A DNA stretch of 64,000 nt from Dehalococcoidia bacterium (GTDB taxonomy: Bacteria; Chloroflexota; Dehalococcoidia; DSTF01; JACRBR01), in contig JADMII010000014.1 in assembly GCA_015478665.1 (NCBI GenBank), positions 1 to 64,000 on the forward strand. Direction: 5' to 3'. This document shows, one piece after another, positions 3,356-51,040 of the stretch (positions within the stretch are counted from its first letter, which is position 1; every line of letters starts with the position of its first letter). The position numbers and the translations under genes are program-made. Under the pieces are notes generated by a model. That model was not told where the DNA came from and did not search any database. It saw only the letters and a program-made list of their open reading frames with translations.

Positions 3356-3522
3356 CTCGTTGCGGCGACGCGATGTGAGGATGGCGGAGGTGGCGAGGTC
3401 CCGCCGCTCCCGCGCCCGCTTTCCACAGTGTGTCGGGGCGTGACGTGGTCGGCGAGCCCGCGATGGGCGCCGTATGTGATCGACGGGCCGACGCCGACAA
3501 CGGATCGGCACGCAGGCGACGA

Positions 3523-4083
3523 ATGCAGGGAGGTGCAGCCATCGATTCTCTACATCTGATCGACCGGCTCGAAGAGATGGTGGCGGAGGGGCGCCGGATG
3601 CCGATCGGCGCGGGCGTGGTCGTCGACCGGCGACGGCTGCTGGATCTCGTCGACCAGATGCGCGCGGCGCTCCCGAACGAGATCAAGGAAGCGGAAGAGC
3701 TGCTGAAGCGACGCGACGACGTGCTGCTGCGGGCCGACGAGGAAGCGCAGATCAAGCTGCGTCGCTGCCAGGAGCAGATCGATGACCTGCTCTCGCACGA
3801 CGCGCTCGTGCGCGAGGCGCAAGCGCGCGCGGACATGCTCGTGCGCGAAGCGGAGGCGCGCGGCGACCGCATGCTGGAAGATACGGAGACGCGCGCAAAG
3901 GCGCGGATGGCGGAAGCCGAGAAGCTGGCGAACGAGCAGATGGACGAAGCCGACCGCTATGCGACGGAGATGCTGCGGCGGCTCGACGAGCAGCTGCAGC
4001 TGTTCGCGCAGAACGTGCGGACGGCGCTCGATTCGCTCGAGACGCGCCCGGCGGCGACGAGCGGCGTCGGCGCCCGAACGTAG
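3523..4083 (+). CDS. coiled-coil protein, DivIVA/ATP-synthase-b-like
   Basis: About 186 aa from this ATG. A short N-terminal part (IDRLEEMVAEGRRMP) contains the VVDRRRLLDLVDQMRAALP block typical of small coiled-coil proteins found near coaD. A long, charged Ala/Glu/Arg helix follows (about 65-165, heptad-like, no Gly/Pro), with repeated REAEAR units. No membrane segment, so it is a cytoplasmic filament-like or scaffold protein. The function is not known; names such as 'ATPase' or 'F0 subunit b-like' given to this family rest on coiled-coil similarity. The start is uncertain: the best Shine-Dalgarno (GGGAGGT at about 3529-3535) lies downstream of this ATG, six bases before an in-frame ATC. Confidence 0.65.
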   Translation: MQGGAAIDSLHLIDRLEEMVAEGRRMPIGAGVVVDRRRLLDLVDQMRAALPNEIKEAEELLKRRDDVLLRADEEAQIKLRRCQEQIDDLLSHDALVREAQARADMLVREAEARGDRMLEDTETRAKARMAEAEKLANEQMDEADRYATEMLRRLDEQLQLFAQNVRTALDSLETRPAATSGVGART

Positions 4084-4442
4084 CCGCGCTGCCGCCTCCC
4101 GTGCGACGCTGGCCGCCCGAGCGGCACGTCCGTGCCGCGGCCGGTCAACGACGGCGACTCCAGGTTTGCATCGTCTGGCCCGCTGCCACTTCTGTTGAGG
4201 CTGGTTCCGGGTTGGCGCCGTGTTCAGCAGGACGGACCAGGCCGGCTCCGCTTTTGCCCGCGGTGCGTCGTCGACGGCGGCGGCGGCGCCGCCCGCGCAT
4301 GGGGCGCGATCCGTGGGCTTGACATGCGGGCGGACCGCTGCGGCGAGGGGCGCTGCGGCGCGGTGCATGGCCGGGGACGGCCGTGATCGGCGCTGTCTGC
4401 CCCGTCGCGCGCTTTCTGTCGGCGCGCGAATCATGTTACGTT
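4084..4442 (+). promoter_or_regulatory. gene-free stretch ending in a leaderless-type -10 box
   Basis: About 360 bases of GC-rich sequence with no gene I can support. Its last hexamer TACGTT (4437-4442) is a TANNNT-type -10 element exactly six bases before the ATG at 4449. There is no Shine-Dalgarno in between, so the next gene probably starts on a leaderless transcript. Confidence 0.45.
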
Positions 4443-45002: not shown

Positions 45003-45246
45003 TCGATCCCTCCTGCAGTTGGCGCCGCGTCCCTCGCGGCCGATGATCGGGATCACATTGTAGGCACGCGTCGCGAGCACCGTCGAGGCAGGTCGACGCG
45101 CTGTCGATGGGCGCTGATTCCGGGGCTGCATGAGCCAGCGGATCACCTTCGAAGAGCACGCGGGACGGCGCTCCGGGAGGCGGCATCGCGGCGAAGCCGG
45201 CTTCGCGCCGCGACGCGGGCGCGCGCCGGGCCAGCGCATCGCAAAA

Positions 45247-45276
45247 TTGACAGGCCCGCGTGGCCGGACATACGAT
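45247..45276 (+). promoter_or_regulatory. promoter of the trehalose operon
   Basis: -35 TTGACA (45247-45252), 18-base spacer, -10 TACGAT (45271-45276), 42 bases before the first ATG. The 316-base divergent gap to the sulfurtransferase contains this promoter and no other gene. Confidence 0.65.
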
Positions 45277-45318
45277 CCGGGGATGGGCGTGACGTCGCCT
45301 GCGCCCAGGAGGACTCCC

Positions 45319-46557
45319 ATGTACGGCACCCTCGCCCTGCCCCAGCGCGCCCTCGACGACCTCGCCGAGGCGGCGGGCGACCGCGCCATCGAGGAGCTGC
45401 GGGCGCTGGCGCGCCCGCTCGAAGGCCTGCGCGTCCTCAACCTCAGCGTCACCGGCTTCGGCACCGGCACCGCCGAGCTCCTGAACTCCGCCGTGCCCCT
45501 GCTCAGCGACCTCGGCCTCGACTGCCACTGGCAGGTCGTCCGCGGCTCCGAGGACACCGCGCATGTGACGCGTGCCATGTACCAGGCGCTCGGCGGCGTC
45601 TACGTGCCGTGGACGCACGATATGACGGAGAAGTGGGAGCGCTACGCCTCCATGAACGCCGAGTTGCTCACGGAGCAGTTCGACGTCATCGTCGTCCACG
45701 ATCCGCAACCGGCGGCGATCCGCTCCTTCGTGCCGCAAGCCGAGGCGGCGCGCTGGCTCTTCCACTCCCACCTCGACCTCTCGTCGGCGCAGGAAGACGT
45801 ATGGCTGCTGCTCCGGCCGCACGTCGAGAAGTACGACGCCGTCGTCTTCGAGGCGGAGTCGTTCGCCCGCCAGGACCTCTCCGTGCCGATGCGGATCATC
45901 CCGCCGGCGATCGACCCCAGCAGCCCGCGCGACATGCCGCTGCCCGACGAGGTGATCAACACCGTCACCGAGCGCTACGGCATCGACCACGCGCGCCCCG
46001 TGTTGTGCCAGGCGTCGCCCTGCGAGCCGGCGAGCAAGCTCACCGAAGCCATCGACGTCTGGGAGCGCGTCCGCGAGCGGCACCCGGGCCTGCAGCTGGT
46101 GATCGTGCTGATGACCGACCCGCAGGACCCGCCGGCACGCGCCTGCTACGAAGAACTGGCGCGCCGCACGAACGACGAGCCGGATGTCTTCGTCCTCAGC
46201 ATGGGCAACGAGCTGGGCAACGTCGAGCTCAACGTCTTCCAGCGCGTCGCCGATGTCAACATGCAACGCGGCCTGCGCAAGGGCTTCGGCATGTGGATCT
46301 CGGATGCGTTGTGGAAGCGCCGCGCCTGCGTCGTCGCGCCGAACGGCGGCCTGACGGAGCAGGTGATCGACGGCGAGACCGGCCTCGTCGCCGAGAGCAC
46401 CGACGAGTTCGCCGCCGCCATCAGCCGCCTGCTCGATGCGCCGGAGACCGCCGCCCGCTTCGGCGCCCGCGGCCGCGAGCGCGTCGCCCGCCAGTTCCTC
46501 ATCACGCGGTACCTGCGCGACTCACTCGAGATCCTGACGACGCTGCACAGGGAGTAA
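45319..46557 (+). CDS. GT4 glycosyltransferase paralogue of TreT, EX7E motif lost
   Basis: 412 aa, GT-B fold, collinear with the next gene (LRVLNLSVTGFGTGTAELL versus ARVLNVNATAFGGGVAEIL; HDPQPAAIRSF versus HDPQPAAIPTF). In retaining GT4 enzymes the EX7E motif binds donor and acceptor. The neighbour has E325 and E333, while here the sites are Lys321 and Asp329 (RKGFGMWISDALWK). The N-terminal GGG loop is also altered (GTG). Catalysis is therefore doubtful; a regulatory or heteromeric partner role for TreT is inferred. CAGGAGG precedes the ATG. Ends three bases before the next gene. Confidence 0.85.
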   Translation: MYGTLALPQRALDDLAEAAGDRAIEELRALARPLEGLRVLNLSVTGFGTGTAELLNSAVPLLSDLGLDCHWQVVRGSEDTAHVTRAMYQALGGVYVPWTHDMTEKWERYASMNAELLTEQFDVIVVHDPQPAAIRSFVPQAEAARWLFHSHLDLSSAQEDVWLLLRPHVEKYDAVVFEAESFARQDLSVPMRIIPPAIDPSSPRDMPLPDEVINTVTERYGIDHARPVLCQASPCEPASKLTEAIDVWERVRERHPGLQLVIVLMTDPQDPPARACYEELARRTNDEPDVFVLSMGNELGNVELNVFQRVADVNMQRGLRKGFGMWISDALWKRRACVVAPNGGLTEQVIDGETGLVAESTDEFAAAISRLLDAPETAARFGARGRERVARQFLITRYLRDSLEILTTLHRE

Positions 46558-46560
46558 ACG

Positions 46561-47853
46561 GTGCTCGGTTCTGTCCCCACGACCCCGAAACTGCTCGAAG
46601 ACTACCGGCCGATCATCGGGGACGAACGGACCGATGAGATCCGCGAGCTCGCCGCGAACCTGCGCGGCGCCCGCGTCCTCAACGTCAACGCCACCGCGTT
46701 CGGCGGCGGCGTCGCCGAGATCCTCGGCACGCTCGTGCCGCTGATGAACGACGCCGGCCTGTATGCCGACTGGCAGGTGATCCGCGGCGCCGATGACTTC
46801 TTCAACATCACGAAGGCGATGCACAACAGCCTGCAGGGCATGTACTACGACTGGACGCCGGAGAAGCGCGAGATCTGGCTCAACTACAACCGCCTCAACG
46901 CCGACCTCTTCGACGAGTCCTACGACTTCGTCATCATCCACGACCCGCAGCCCGCCGCCATCCCGACCTTCCTCGAAGAGCGCCTCGGCCGCCGCGACGG
47001 CAAGTGGCTCTGGCGCTGCCACATCGACCTCACCGAGGCGCAGGTGCAGATCTGGGACTTCCTGCGCCCGCACGTCGCCCGCTACGACGCGGCCATCTTC
47101 ACCCTGCCCGCGTATGTGAACGACGACCTCCAGGGCCCGCAGATCTTCTGCGTCCCGCCGGCCATCGACCCCCTCAGCCCGAAGAACGTCGACCTCCCGC
47201 GCGAGACCGTCGACGGCATCCTCGCCCGCTACTCCGTCGATCCGCGGCGGCCGATGATCACCCAGATCTCGCGCTTCGACCCGTGGAAGGACCCGCTCGG
47301 CGTCATCGATGTCTACCGCATGGTGAAGGCGGAGGTTCCGGACCTGCAGCTCGTCATGGTCGCATCGATGGCCAGCGACGATCCCGAGGGCTGGGACTGG
47401 TACGAGCGCACGGTCCGCCGCGCCGGCGAGGACTTCGACATCCACATCCTCTCGAACCTCAACGGCGTCGGCAATCTCGAGGTCAACGCCTTCCAGCGCG
47501 CCGCCGACGTCGTCGTGCAGAAGTCCCTGCGCGAGGGCTTCGGGCTCGTGGTGTCGGAGGCGTTGTGGAAGGGGCGGCCGGTCGTCGCCGGCAACGTCGG
47601 CGGCATCCCGCTGCAGATCGTCAACGACAAGATCGGCTTCCTCGTCAACTCGAACGAGGAGTGCGCCGACCGCCTGCTCTACCTCCTGCGCAACCGCGAC
47701 GAGGCGGAGCGCATGGGGTCGACGGGCATCGAGTTCGTGCGCGACAATTTTCTCACGACGCGCTATCTTCGGGACTATCTGCGCATATTCTGTCAGCTGT
47801 CCGGCAAGACCAGCGAAGGACGGGGCCTTCCCGCCGGCCGCGCCCGGCGGTAG
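46561..47853 (+). CDS. treT: trehalose glycosyltransferring synthase (TreT-type GT4)
   Basis: 430 aa. N-terminal NVNATAFGGGVAEILGTLVPL, WQVIRGADDFFNITKAMHN and LQGMYYDW are typical TreT-family blocks. HDPQPAAIP follows, then the C-terminal donor lobe with SRFDPWKDPLGVI (nucleotide-binding Arg/Lys) and the intact EX7E EGFGLVVSE (E325, E333). TreT makes trehalose directly from an NDP-glucose and glucose. The adjoining glgC would provide ADP-glucose. GTG start. The GT4 assignment is secure; the trehalose specificity comes from similarity and context. Confidence 0.85.
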   Translation: MLGSVPTTPKLLEDYRPIIGDERTDEIRELAANLRGARVLNVNATAFGGGVAEILGTLVPLMNDAGLYADWQVIRGADDFFNITKAMHNSLQGMYYDWTPEKREIWLNYNRLNADLFDESYDFVIIHDPQPAAIPTFLEERLGRRDGKWLWRCHIDLTEAQVQIWDFLRPHVARYDAAIFTLPAYVNDDLQGPQIFCVPPAIDPLSPKNVDLPRETVDGILARYSVDPRRPMITQISRFDPWKDPLGVIDVYRMVKAEVPDLQLVMVASMASDDPEGWDWYERTVRRAGEDFDIHILSNLNGVGNLEVNAFQRAADVVVQKSLREGFGLVVSEALWKGRPVVAGNVGGIPLQIVNDKIGFLVNSNEECADRLLYLLRNRDEAERMGSTGIEFVRDNFLTTRYLRDYLRIFCQLSGKTSEGRGLPAGRARR

Positions 47854-47867
47854 ATCGAGGACCGAAG

Positions 47868-49154
47868 ATGAAACGCGTCGTCGCGCTGATCCTCGCCGGC
47901 GGCCAGGGCGACAGGCTCAGCGTCCTCAGCGAGGAACGCGCGAAGCCCGCCGTCATCTTCGGCGGCCGCTACCGGATCATCGACTTCGCCCTCAGCAACT
48001 GTGTCAACTCCGACGTTACCCGCGTCGGTGTCATGACGCAGTACCGCCCGCGCTCGCTCAACGACCACATCGGCATCGGCCGGCCGTGGGACCTCGACCG
48101 CTCCGGCGGCGGCGTCACGCTGCTCCAGCCGTACCTCGGCCGCGAGAGCTCGGACTGGTATCGCGGCACCGCCGACGCCGTCTTTCAGAACATCTACTTC
48201 CTCGAGGAAACGAAGGCCGAGCTCGTGCTGATCCTCGCCGGCGACCACATCTACAAGATGAACTACGAGGAGCTGATCCTGCAGCACCTGGCGAGAGAGG
48301 CCGATGTCACCGTGCCGCTCTACCAGGTGCCGATGGACGAGGCGCACCGCTACGGCGTCCTCACCACCGAGGACGACGGCCGCATCGTCGAGTGGGACGA
48401 GAAGCCGGACCACCCGAAGTCCAACCTGATCTCGATGGGCATCTACGTCTTCAGCCGCCAGGTGCTGATCGACCAGCTCTTCGCCGACTCGCAGCACGAC
48501 ACGACGCACGACTTCGGCCGTGATATCGTGCCGGCGATGGTCGACGACCCGGCGATGCGCGTCTTCGGCCACCGCTTCGACGGCTACTGGCGCGACGTCG
48601 GCACCATCCAGTCCTACTTCGATGCCAACATGGATCTCCTCGAAGACCTGCCCGCGCTCAACCTCTACGACCCGGAATCACGCATCCGCACGCGCATCAC
48701 CGGCTACCCGCCGGCGAAGATCGGCCGGCGCGCGTACATCTCACGCTCACTGCTCGAACTCGGCTGCATCATCAACGGCCACGTCGAGCACTCGGTGCTC
48801 TCGCCCGGCGTCTACGTCGAAGAGGGCGCCGTGGTGCGCGACTCCGTCGTCTCCGACAACTGCCGCATCGAGCAGGGGGCGATCATCGAGCGGTCGATCC
48901 TCGACAAGGAAGTGTTCGTCGGCAAGAACGCGTACGTCGGCTACGGCGACGACTGGTCACCGAACAGCGAGCGGCCGGACATCGTCAACGGCGGCATCAC
49001 GATCGTCGGCAAGCGCGCGACGCTGCCCGCGTACACGCGCATCGGCCGCAACTGCGTCATCGGCCCCAACGTCAGGCCGGGCGCCGACGAGGCGTACATT
49101 GCCAGCGGCACCACCCTGCGCGAGAAGGAGAAGCGCTTTCCGTACCGCGTCTGA
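47868..49154 (+). CDS. glgC: glucose-1-phosphate adenylyltransferase
   Basis: 428 aa. LILAGGQGDRLSVLSEERAKPAV is the nucleotide-binding start (parts), then FGGRYRIIDFALSNC, SDWYRGTADAVFQN, the catalytic LILAGDHIYKMNY and WRDVGTIQSYFDANMDLL. A left-handed beta-helix follows (about 290-420, VxEGAVVRDSVV-like hexads). It makes ADP-glucose from ATP and glucose-1-phosphate. It is third in the operon after the two GT4 genes, so trehalose rather than glycogen is the likely product; no glgA or glgB is adjacent. ATCGAGGA lies before the ATG. Confidence 0.94.
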   Translation: MKRVVALILAGGQGDRLSVLSEERAKPAVIFGGRYRIIDFALSNCVNSDVTRVGVMTQYRPRSLNDHIGIGRPWDLDRSGGGVTLLQPYLGRESSDWYRGTADAVFQNIYFLEETKAELVLILAGDHIYKMNYEELILQHLAREADVTVPLYQVPMDEAHRYGVLTTEDDGRIVEWDEKPDHPKSNLISMGIYVFSRQVLIDQLFADSQHDTTHDFGRDIVPAMVDDPAMRVFGHRFDGYWRDVGTIQSYFDANMDLLEDLPALNLYDPESRIRTRITGYPPAKIGRRAYISRSLLELGCIINGHVEHSVLSPGVYVEEGAVVRDSVVSDNCRIEQGAIIERSILDKEVFVGKNAYVGYGDDWSPNSERPDIVNGGITIVGKRATLPAYTRIGRNCVIGPNVRPGADEAYIASGTTLREKEKRFPYRV

Positions 49155-49377: not shown

Positions 49378-49454
49378 TGGTCCCAGGGGGTGGATTCGAA
49401 CCACCGATACACGGTTTTACAGACCGTTGCCTTAGGCCGCTTGGCTACCCTGGG
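49378..49454 (-). tRNA. tRNA-Tyr (GTA), CCA encoded, archaeal-like architecture
   Basis: Complete cloverleaf: acceptor CCCAGGG/CCCTGGG with C1:G72, U8-A9, D arm GCC...GGC, anticodon stem ACGGT/ACCGT with loop CTGTAAA (anticodon GTA), a five-base variable loop GTATC, T arm GGTGG-TTCGAAT-CCACC, discriminator A73 and encoded CCA. Bacterial tRNA-Tyr normally has G1:C72 and a long variable arm. TATACA (49469-49464), nine bases upstream of the 5' end, is a plausible -10. Confidence 0.93.
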
Positions 49455-49662: not shown

Positions 49663-50385
49663 CTACGCCGCGCGGCGACGCTCGTCGCCGTCGTCGCCGG
49701 CCGCCGCCCCCGGTTGCGGCGCCAAGCCCGGCACCGGCGCGCGGCGCCCGAGATGCGACGAGGCCGGCTCGACGGCCCGCGCGCGGATCCAGACCCGACG
49801 GCCGAAGTCGTAGCGGCTGATCACGCGCGCCGGGTTGCCCGCGGCGACGCAGAAGTCCGGCACATCGTGCGTGACGACGGCGCCGGCGCCGACGACGGCG
49901 TGCCGGCCGATGCGCACGTTCGGCAGCACGACGGCGTTGATGCCGATGAACGCGTCATCGGCGACGATCAAGTAGCCGCGCGTCATCGCCTGCTCGATGA
50001 CCGGCAGCGACGGGTCGCCGTAGCCGTGGATCGCATCGCCGATGTGGACGTTGCTCGAGATCAGCACGCGCGCGCCGATGACGATCGAGCCGGCGCAGCT
50101 GACGATGAAGTTCTGACCGATGCTCGTGTCGTCGGCGATGCGCAGGACGCCGTCGTAGCGCTCGCCGCGGCGCTCGCCCAGCACCGAGAGGAAGGCGTAC
50201 GGCCCGATGACCGTGCGCGAGCCGACGCTGATGCGCTGCGCGCCGATGATGCGGTACGGCGGCACGATCAGCGCGTCGTCGCCGAACGCGCGAAAGCCGT
50301 GCGCGACGCCTTGCAGGCGCGATGCCACGCGCAGGGCGGCGCCGGCCGCGCCGCGTGGCAGCCGCGGCGATGCCCCCCTACGCAC
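49663..50385 (-). CDS. acyltransferase with left-handed beta-helix (LbetaH)
   Basis: 240 aa. Hexapeptide repeats run through the central and C-terminal part (RISVGSRTVIGPYAFL, SIVIGARVLISSNVHIGD, VVLPNVRIGRHAVVGAGAVV), ending in the family phrase DVPDFCVAAGNPARVI. Typical for O-acetyl- or N-acyltransferases acting on sugars. GTG start inside the 3' end of the methyltransferase gene, preceded by GGAGG. It is the last gene of a minus-strand polysaccharide cluster. The ~45-residue C-terminal tail is low-complexity. Confidence 0.82.
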   Translation of the reverse strand: MRRGASPRLPRGAAGAALRVASRLQGVAHGFRAFGDDALIVPPYRIIGAQRISVGSRTVIGPYAFLSVLGERRGERYDGVLRIADDTSIGQNFIVSCAGSIVIGARVLISSNVHIGDAIHGYGDPSLPVIEQAMTRGYLIVADDAFIGINAVVLPNVRIGRHAVVGAGAVVTHDVPDFCVAAGNPARVISRYDFGRRVWIRARAVEPASSHLGRRAPVPGLAPQPGAAAGDDGDERRRAA

Positions 50386-51040
50386 CGTCGCCTCCGTTGA
50401 CGGCGACCGCCCGCCAGAGGAACGGCAGCGTGCGTGAGAGCAGCGCGCCGACCGGCCGCTGCCACCAGCGCAGCGGCGGCGTGGAGCCTGCGACCACGAT
50501 GCGGGCGAAGCCGGCGTCTTCGAGCAGGCGCTCGAGGCCAATCCGGCTGAAAGCGCGGACGTGCGTGTAGTCGTCGTAGAAGTTGGCCGGGAAGGGATAC
50601 AACTGCGACCACTGCGTCGGCACGTAGGCGAGCAGCACGCCGCCCGGCCGCAGCACCCGCCGCACCTCCGTCACCAGGTCGAGCGGCCGCTGCACGTGCT
50701 CGAGCACCTCCTTCAGGCGGACGCAGTCGAGCGCGCCGCGCGCCAGCGGCAGCTCTTCGCCGGCCGCCTGCAGCACGTCGATCCCGCGTGCGGCGGCGAC
50801 GGCCGCCGCCGCACCGAACCGTTCGACGCCGACGGCATCGATGCCGCGCGCGCGGCACGCCCGGACGAAGCCGCCGTTGCCGCAGCCGACATCGAATACC
50901 GGCGCGCGACGGCGCACGCGCGCGATGGCGCGCACGTCGCCCTCGACGAGCGACGGCGGCTCGCGCAGGCGCTGCCAGTAGCGCCGGCGCGCCTCGGAGG
51001 GCTGGGCCGCGATGCTGCATGCGTCGCCCCGGACGTCCAT
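50378..51040 (-). CDS. class I SAM-dependent methyltransferase
   Basis: 220 aa. Motif I VFDVGCGNGGFVRAC (about 45-59), motif II region GVERFG, motif post-I ELPLARGALDCVRLKEVLEHV (parts) and LRPGGVLLAYVPT. Methyltransf_11/UbiE-like fold, with the NFYDDYTHVRAFS element seen in sugar or lipid methyltransferases of surface-glycan clusters. AAGGAG fixes the ATG. Overlaps the acyltransferase start by eight bases. Confidence 0.87.
   Translation of the reverse strand: MDVRGDACSIAAQPSEARRRYWQRLREPPSLVEGDVRAIARVRRRAPVFDVGCGNGGFVRACRARGIDAVGVERFGAAAAVAAARGIDVLQAAGEELPLARGALDCVRLKEVLEHVQRPLDLVTEVRRVLRPGGVLLAYVPTQWSQLYPFPANFYDDYTHVRAFSRIGLERLLEDAGFARIVVAGSTPPLRWWQRPVGALLSRTLPFLWRAVAVNGGDGA

Follow-up and report, generated by a model that had tools for sequence, protein, structure and literature searches.

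Apparent swap of the tyrosine tRNA/synthetase pair for one of archaeal identity in a bacterial lineage outside the CPR, with predicted charging specificity

Introduction

How did a bacterium of the Chloroflexota come to hold a tRNA-Tyr with the identity bases of Archaea and Eukarya, and which enzyme would charge it? The question is raised by a gene found in the window, the stretch of 64,000 nucleotides of Dehalococcoidia DNA analysed here. Tyrosine identity is among the few aminoacylation rules on which Bacteria and Archaea/Eukarya are cleanly divided, and this difference was long believed to bar the exchange of TyrRSs across domains. In CPR bacteria, archaeal-type TyrRSs occur along with C1-G72 tRNA-Tyr, which in many of them have kept the long arm (Mukai et al. 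2017, PMC5370408). Reports linking Chloroflexota (Chloroflexi) or Dormibacterota with an archaeal-type Tyr pair were not found in a search in which subscription journals were sparsely covered.

Results

The single tRNA recognized by ARAGORN in the 64-kb window is a class I tRNA-Tyr(gta), located at 49378-49454 on the minus strand. The complete gene, 5' to 3', is CCCAGGGTAGCCAAGCGGCCTAAGGCAACGGTCTGTAAAACCGTGTATCGGTGGTTCGAATCCACCCCCTGGGACCA, and is made by the segments CCCAGGG TA GCC AAGCGGCCTAA GGC A ACGGT CTGTAAA ACCGT GTATC GGTGG TTCGAAT CCACC CCCTGGG A CCA. It scores 64.2 bits with the Rfam tRNA model RF00005, all 71 positions being covered. The preliminary description of this DNA had reported an intact cloverleaf with a Tyr anticodon, and both statements hold: all stems are paired, CCA is encoded, and the anticodon loop CTGTAAA reads GTA (49418-49420). 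The same description had pointed to three traits unusual in Bacteria, and each of them can be read in the sequence. C1, in the 5' acceptor strand CCCAGGG (49448-49454), pairs with G72 in the 3' strand CCCTGGG, which is followed by the discriminator A73 (49381-49388); the variable loop, GTATC (49406-49410), is five nucleotides long, and lies where long-arm relatives and bacterial tRNA-Tyr in general carry the long arm. C1:G72, A73 and a short variable loop are the marks of archaeal/eukaryotic tRNA-Tyr, and neither the long variable arm nor the G1:C72 pair of bacterial class II tRNA-Tyr is present in the window gene. In the fold predicted for the single strand (-30.7 kcal/mol, z -2.3) the acceptor and T arms reappear, and the anticodon arm nearly does. 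A scan for consensus signals at the gene, of a kind which is weak in GC-rich genomes, revealed no sigma-70-like promoter and no terminator. The gene is identical in G426 and G427, and near-identical in the remaining members of family f1, to which the window belongs. Every one of the 8 genomes of f1 carries this gene with its identity bases unchanged, so that its features are not due to chance.

The source assembly is a draft of 2.67 Mb in 66 contigs, 98.9% complete. The Rfam model finds 40 tRNA matches in it, and the only one typed as Tyr by ARAGORN is the window gene; no second or class II tRNA-Tyr, which the preliminary description had named as counting against it, is present among the 40. 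Only two proteins of the genome fall in the Tyr/Trp synthetase family PF00579, a bacterial TrpRS and P0001, a protein of 385 aa encoded at C53:17031-18104, which is the only TyrRS. P0001 is of archaeal type: it scores 408.1 bits with NF006330 (archaeal TyrRS; cut-off 220) and 100.2 with TIGR00234 (bacterial TyrRS), below the cut-off of 113.8, a threshold exceeded by no TyrRS of this genome. Its best match in PDB is the TyrRS of Pyrococcus horikoshii (E 5e-123), an entry which we take to be 2cyc. The class I signature motifs IHLG (HIGH-like) and KMSKS are present. PF00579 is the sole Pfam match, and the S4 domain, present in the bacterial-type TyrRS of G298, a genome of a sister family, is absent. 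The two genes are not adjacent in family f1. An unusual TyrRS matching the tRNA had been predicted from the latter alone, and P0001 bears the prediction out; at the sequence level, the view that this tRNA-Tyr carries the archaeal/eukaryotic identity set, matched by an archaeal-type TyrRS, is thus supported.

The trait is unevenly distributed. Among 400 sampled genomes placed in the phylum by the grouping of the search tool, nearly all the genomes compared in this work being drafts or MAGs, the cut-off for archaeal TyrRS is exceeded in 13, plus one in which the gene is split, and the 13 fall in three families, f1, f33 and f87. In the class containing f33 the cut-off is exceeded in 23 of 110 genomes, all belonging to f33; the two exceptions in this family are G045 and G231, in which the TyrRS is bacterial and the tRNA-Tyr long-armed. 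An archaeal-type TyrRS is found also in a group of Anaerolineae MAGs, and the close relatives of P0001 come from MAGs of Chloroflexota and Dormibacterota. Within the order of the window (18 genomes), 8/8 members of f1 combine an archaeal enzyme with the short-arm C1:G72 tRNA, whereas in 10/10 genomes of three sister families a bacterial enzyme is coupled with a long-arm G1:C72 tRNA. The association extends to the two phyla. All the 31 archaeal-enzyme genomes of Chloroflexota and Dormibacterota in which a tRNA-Tyr was found have a short arm, C1:G72 and A73, and all the 17 lacking the archaeal enzyme have the long-arm G1:C72 type, so that the types of TyrRS and tRNA agree in 48 of 48 genomes, with no exceptions; in the 17, the bacterial enzyme was recognized directly by TIGR00234 in five (G298, G429, G434, G045 and G231), and by a low NF006330 score in the others. 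No tRNA-Tyr was found in two archaeal-enzyme genomes which are incomplete or fragmented (G371 and G414). A bacterial TyrRS was found in none of the 14 archaeal-enzyme relatives searched, four members of f1 included. The archaeal-type pair is therefore not routine in the phylum, as the preliminary description had allowed it might be; it is uncommon, real and well supported.

Some variants were noticed along the survey. In two Dormibacterota drafts the archaeal-type TyrRS is split over two frames (L113, in G223:C19, and G458:C285), by frameshift or assembly error. Two short-arm C1:G72 tRNA-Tyr of family f87 (L148 and L149) have the common class I D arm AGCTCAGTTGGTTTAGAGC, in place of the GCCAAG...AAGGC type of the other groups. 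In two separate lineages (L251 in G284, L252 in G406) the anticodon loop is CTGTAAC rather than CTGTAAA, a change at position 38.

The comparison with the sister families also reveals what became of the native gene. In 10/10 of their genomes tRNA-Thr(TGT) and tRNA-Thr(GGT) flank the gene for tRNA-Tyr. In the f1 genomes from which the cluster was recovered, the one of the window included, the two tRNA-Thr genes are adjacent, 66-81 nt apart, and tRNA-Tyr is missing (7/7). The native tRNA-Tyr has been lost from its conserved slot in f1. In the genome of the window the empty slot and the TyrRS gene reside 8 kb apart on the same contig, C53. The short-arm gene is found in f1 at unrelated places, outside the Thr cluster. 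In the window it is flanked upstream by a glgC-like nucleotidyltransferase gene (47868-49154, plus strand; Pfam NTP_transferase), and on the other side by an ORF similar to hexapeptide-repeat acyltransferases (49663-50541, minus strand; Pfam Hexapep), neither of which belongs to the system. A glgC gene was not found beside tRNA-Tyr in other members of f1, and synteny at the new location is not conserved. The glgC-like gene is preceded by two consecutive ORFs (45130-46557 and 46561-47853), both resembling trehalose-synthase-type GT4 glycosyltransferases; a TreT domain was confirmed in the second.

Discussion

Most likely, a transferred tRNA/TyrRS pair displaced the native one, and the long arm was not lost in place. 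We hold it very probable, judging from the genes compared, that the window gene is a working tRNA-Tyr charged by the archaeal-type TyrRS, that the pair was acquired laterally by the ancestor of f1, and that the native pair was lost thereafter. The short-arm tRNA-Tyr precedes tyrS on the same strand, at a distance of ~100-220 nt, in several Dormibacterota and in one Anaerolineae genome. In the TyrRS tree a single clade (94/90) holds all the archaeal-type enzymes of Chloroflexota and Dormibacterota; f1 sits next to Dormibacterota (90/78), and the enzymes of the CPR phylum WWE3, and then those of DPANN archaea, lie outside the clade. Lateral transfer of the pair is favoured by the adjacency of the two genes, the TyrRS clade and the patchy distribution, taken together. 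The process may be outlined as follows. The ancestor of f1 would have received the pair probably as a tRNA-tyrS cassette like those of Dormibacterota; entry as one cassette is inferred, the two genes being non-adjacent in f1. The incoming pair could have worked alongside the native one, as the two would not cross-charge, and native tRNA-Tyr and native TyrRS would have been lost afterwards. At present the window gene would be the tRNA reading both Tyr codons, and P0001, encoded elsewhere in the genome, would charge it. P0001, which lacks S4, the domain that holds the long arm in the bacterial system, would be expected to rely on C1:G72, A73 and the anticodon in its place; recognition of C1:G72 is predicted from the family to which it belongs.

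Where the body of the RNA comes from is a separate matter: it may derive from an archaeal tRNA-Tyr, from a remoulded class I tRNA, or from a much older tRNA-Tyr which was shortened. The preliminary description had likened the D arm to that of bacterial tRNA-Tyr, and had proposed a hybrid deprived of its long arm. The likeness does not stand. The D arm TAGCCAAGCGGCCTAAGGCA (49429-49445), which has a 3-bp stem GCC/GGC and an unpaired A.A above it, has an edit cost of 1.5-3.5 to class I tRNA-Cys (from Woesearchaeota and from the same genome) and tRNA-Gln (from Dormibacterota), and of 9-10 to native long-arm tRNA-Tyr from genomes of the window's order, and the argument for a lost arm drawn from it therefore fails. 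That a tRNA of Cys or Gln type was remoulded by changes in anticodon and acceptor is a tentative option, rather doubtful, though compatible with transfer, as it concerns the origin of the RNA body only. The D arm is nearly identical to those of the resident tRNA-Cys(GCA), of Woesearchaeota tRNA-Cys and of Dormibacterota tRNA-Gln, a single base separates Cys GCA from Tyr GTA, and tRNA-Cys is the closest resident tRNA across the body (43/59). Yet Arg and Trp tRNAs (42 each) are hardly more distant, the 3-bp D stem is found also in a tRNA-Tyr from Nanoarchaeia, and a gene of 77 nt has little phylogenetic power.

Conversion in place, in which the native class II tRNA-Tyr flipped its 1:72 pair and dropped the long arm after the arrival of an archaeal TyrRS, appears unlikely. 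It could account for the resemblance of the acceptor and anticodon arms to those of the tRNA of sister family f2 (GCCAGGG..., ACGGTCTGTAAAATCGT), but families f92 and f93, sisters as well, have a different acceptor stem, GGAGGGG. Changes of this type have plausibly occurred in CPR Parcubacteria, with the arm kept. In L084 (4005-6190) the order is Thr(TGT)-Tyr-tyrS-Thr(GGT), in L087 (4789-6106) Tyr-tyrS-Thr(GGT), and in both the tyrS is of archaeal type and the tRNA-Tyr is C1:G72 with a long arm; these have the appearance of in-place conversions, and differ from the replacement in f1, where the native slot is empty, the new gene resides at another site, and its D arm is unlike the native one. 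Moreover, near-identical short-arm genes are found in Dormibacterota and in f87, whose neighbours keep bacterial-type pairs, which implies that the RNA was shared laterally. The notion that the short-arm gene is a decoy, a pseudogene or a contaminant, a standard pair being hidden in the unassembled part of a 66-contig draft from whose list some tRNAs are missing, is highly improbable, given the same result in 8/8 separately assembled members of f1, the presence of both TyrRS and empty slot on C53, the absence of a bacterial TyrRS in the four f1 members tested, and the intact cloverleaf.

Replacement by a transferred pair finds a likely intermediate in WWE3. One contig of 864 kb (L082, G416 contig C1) hosts two full Tyr pairs, at positions 277417, 279039, 724805 and 833530: in one pair a bacterial TyrRS is accompanied by a G1:C72 long-arm tRNA, located in the Thr cluster; in the other the TyrRS is of archaeal type, and its C1:G72 tRNA, long-armed as well, lies ~1.5 kb upstream. 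As in the CPR (PMC5370408), f1 are bacteria with archaeal/eukaryotic Tyr identity and an archaeal-type TyrRS, related to DPANN and CPR sequences. In contrast to the CPR, where many tRNAs are altered bacterial tRNA-Tyr retaining the long arm, all those identified in Chloroflexota and Dormibacterota are devoid of it, and in f1 the native slot has lost its gene, in a family outside the CPR phyla to which that study was confined. One short-arm C1:G72 tRNA-Tyr, with acceptor CCAGTGG, was noticed within the CPR, in Shapirobacteria (L254, G441). With the archaeal pairs of P. horikoshii and M. jannaschii the f1 pair shares an NF006330-type enzyme devoid of S4, C1:G72, A73 and a short variable loop, but differs from them in the 3-bp D stem of tRNA-Cys/Gln type, the encoded CCA, the lack of an intron and the GC-rich bacterial host. 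With the standard bacterial pair (TIGR00234, class II tRNA), which is the one of the sister families in the same order, it has in common anticodon GTA and A73, but not G1:C72, the long variable arm and an S4-bearing TyrRS.

A closely matching short-arm tRNA donor was not found in DPANN or in the CPR: searches for DPANN tRNA-Tyr with an intron-tolerant pattern gave no match in 14 genomes, and ARAGORN, set to allow introns, detected none in the large part of a Diapherotrites genome to which it was applied. We incline, if only slightly, to the broader view that tRNA-Tyr and tyrS of archaeal identity, as a self-contained cassette, have been passed laterally among four or more separate lineages of Chloroflexota and Dormibacterota, ousting the native pair completely in each, outside the CPR. 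As a side observation, the 3' half of the short-arm tRNA-Tyr recurs exactly over 50 nt at 4640-4690 in L320 (G344:C25), ~300 nt from a tyrosine-recombinase gene (3402-4331), in an attachment-site arrangement; this contig also carries tyrS, at a distance of ~9.6 kb.

The genes described, with charging specificity predicted, indicate a completed swap to a tyrosine tRNA/synthetase pair of archaeal identity in a bacterial lineage outside the CPR, the only group in which, as far as we found, such a swap had been previously reported. Since f1 has made the exchange and its sister families have not, the swap of an identity set may be studied by a before-and-after comparison. Pairs of the f1 type, archaeal-type, presumably orthogonal, and already fitted to bacterial translation, may be of interest for genetic-code expansion. 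If the spread of the cassette is true, a natural orthogonal pair would have repeatedly replaced a core component of the genetic code outside the CPR.
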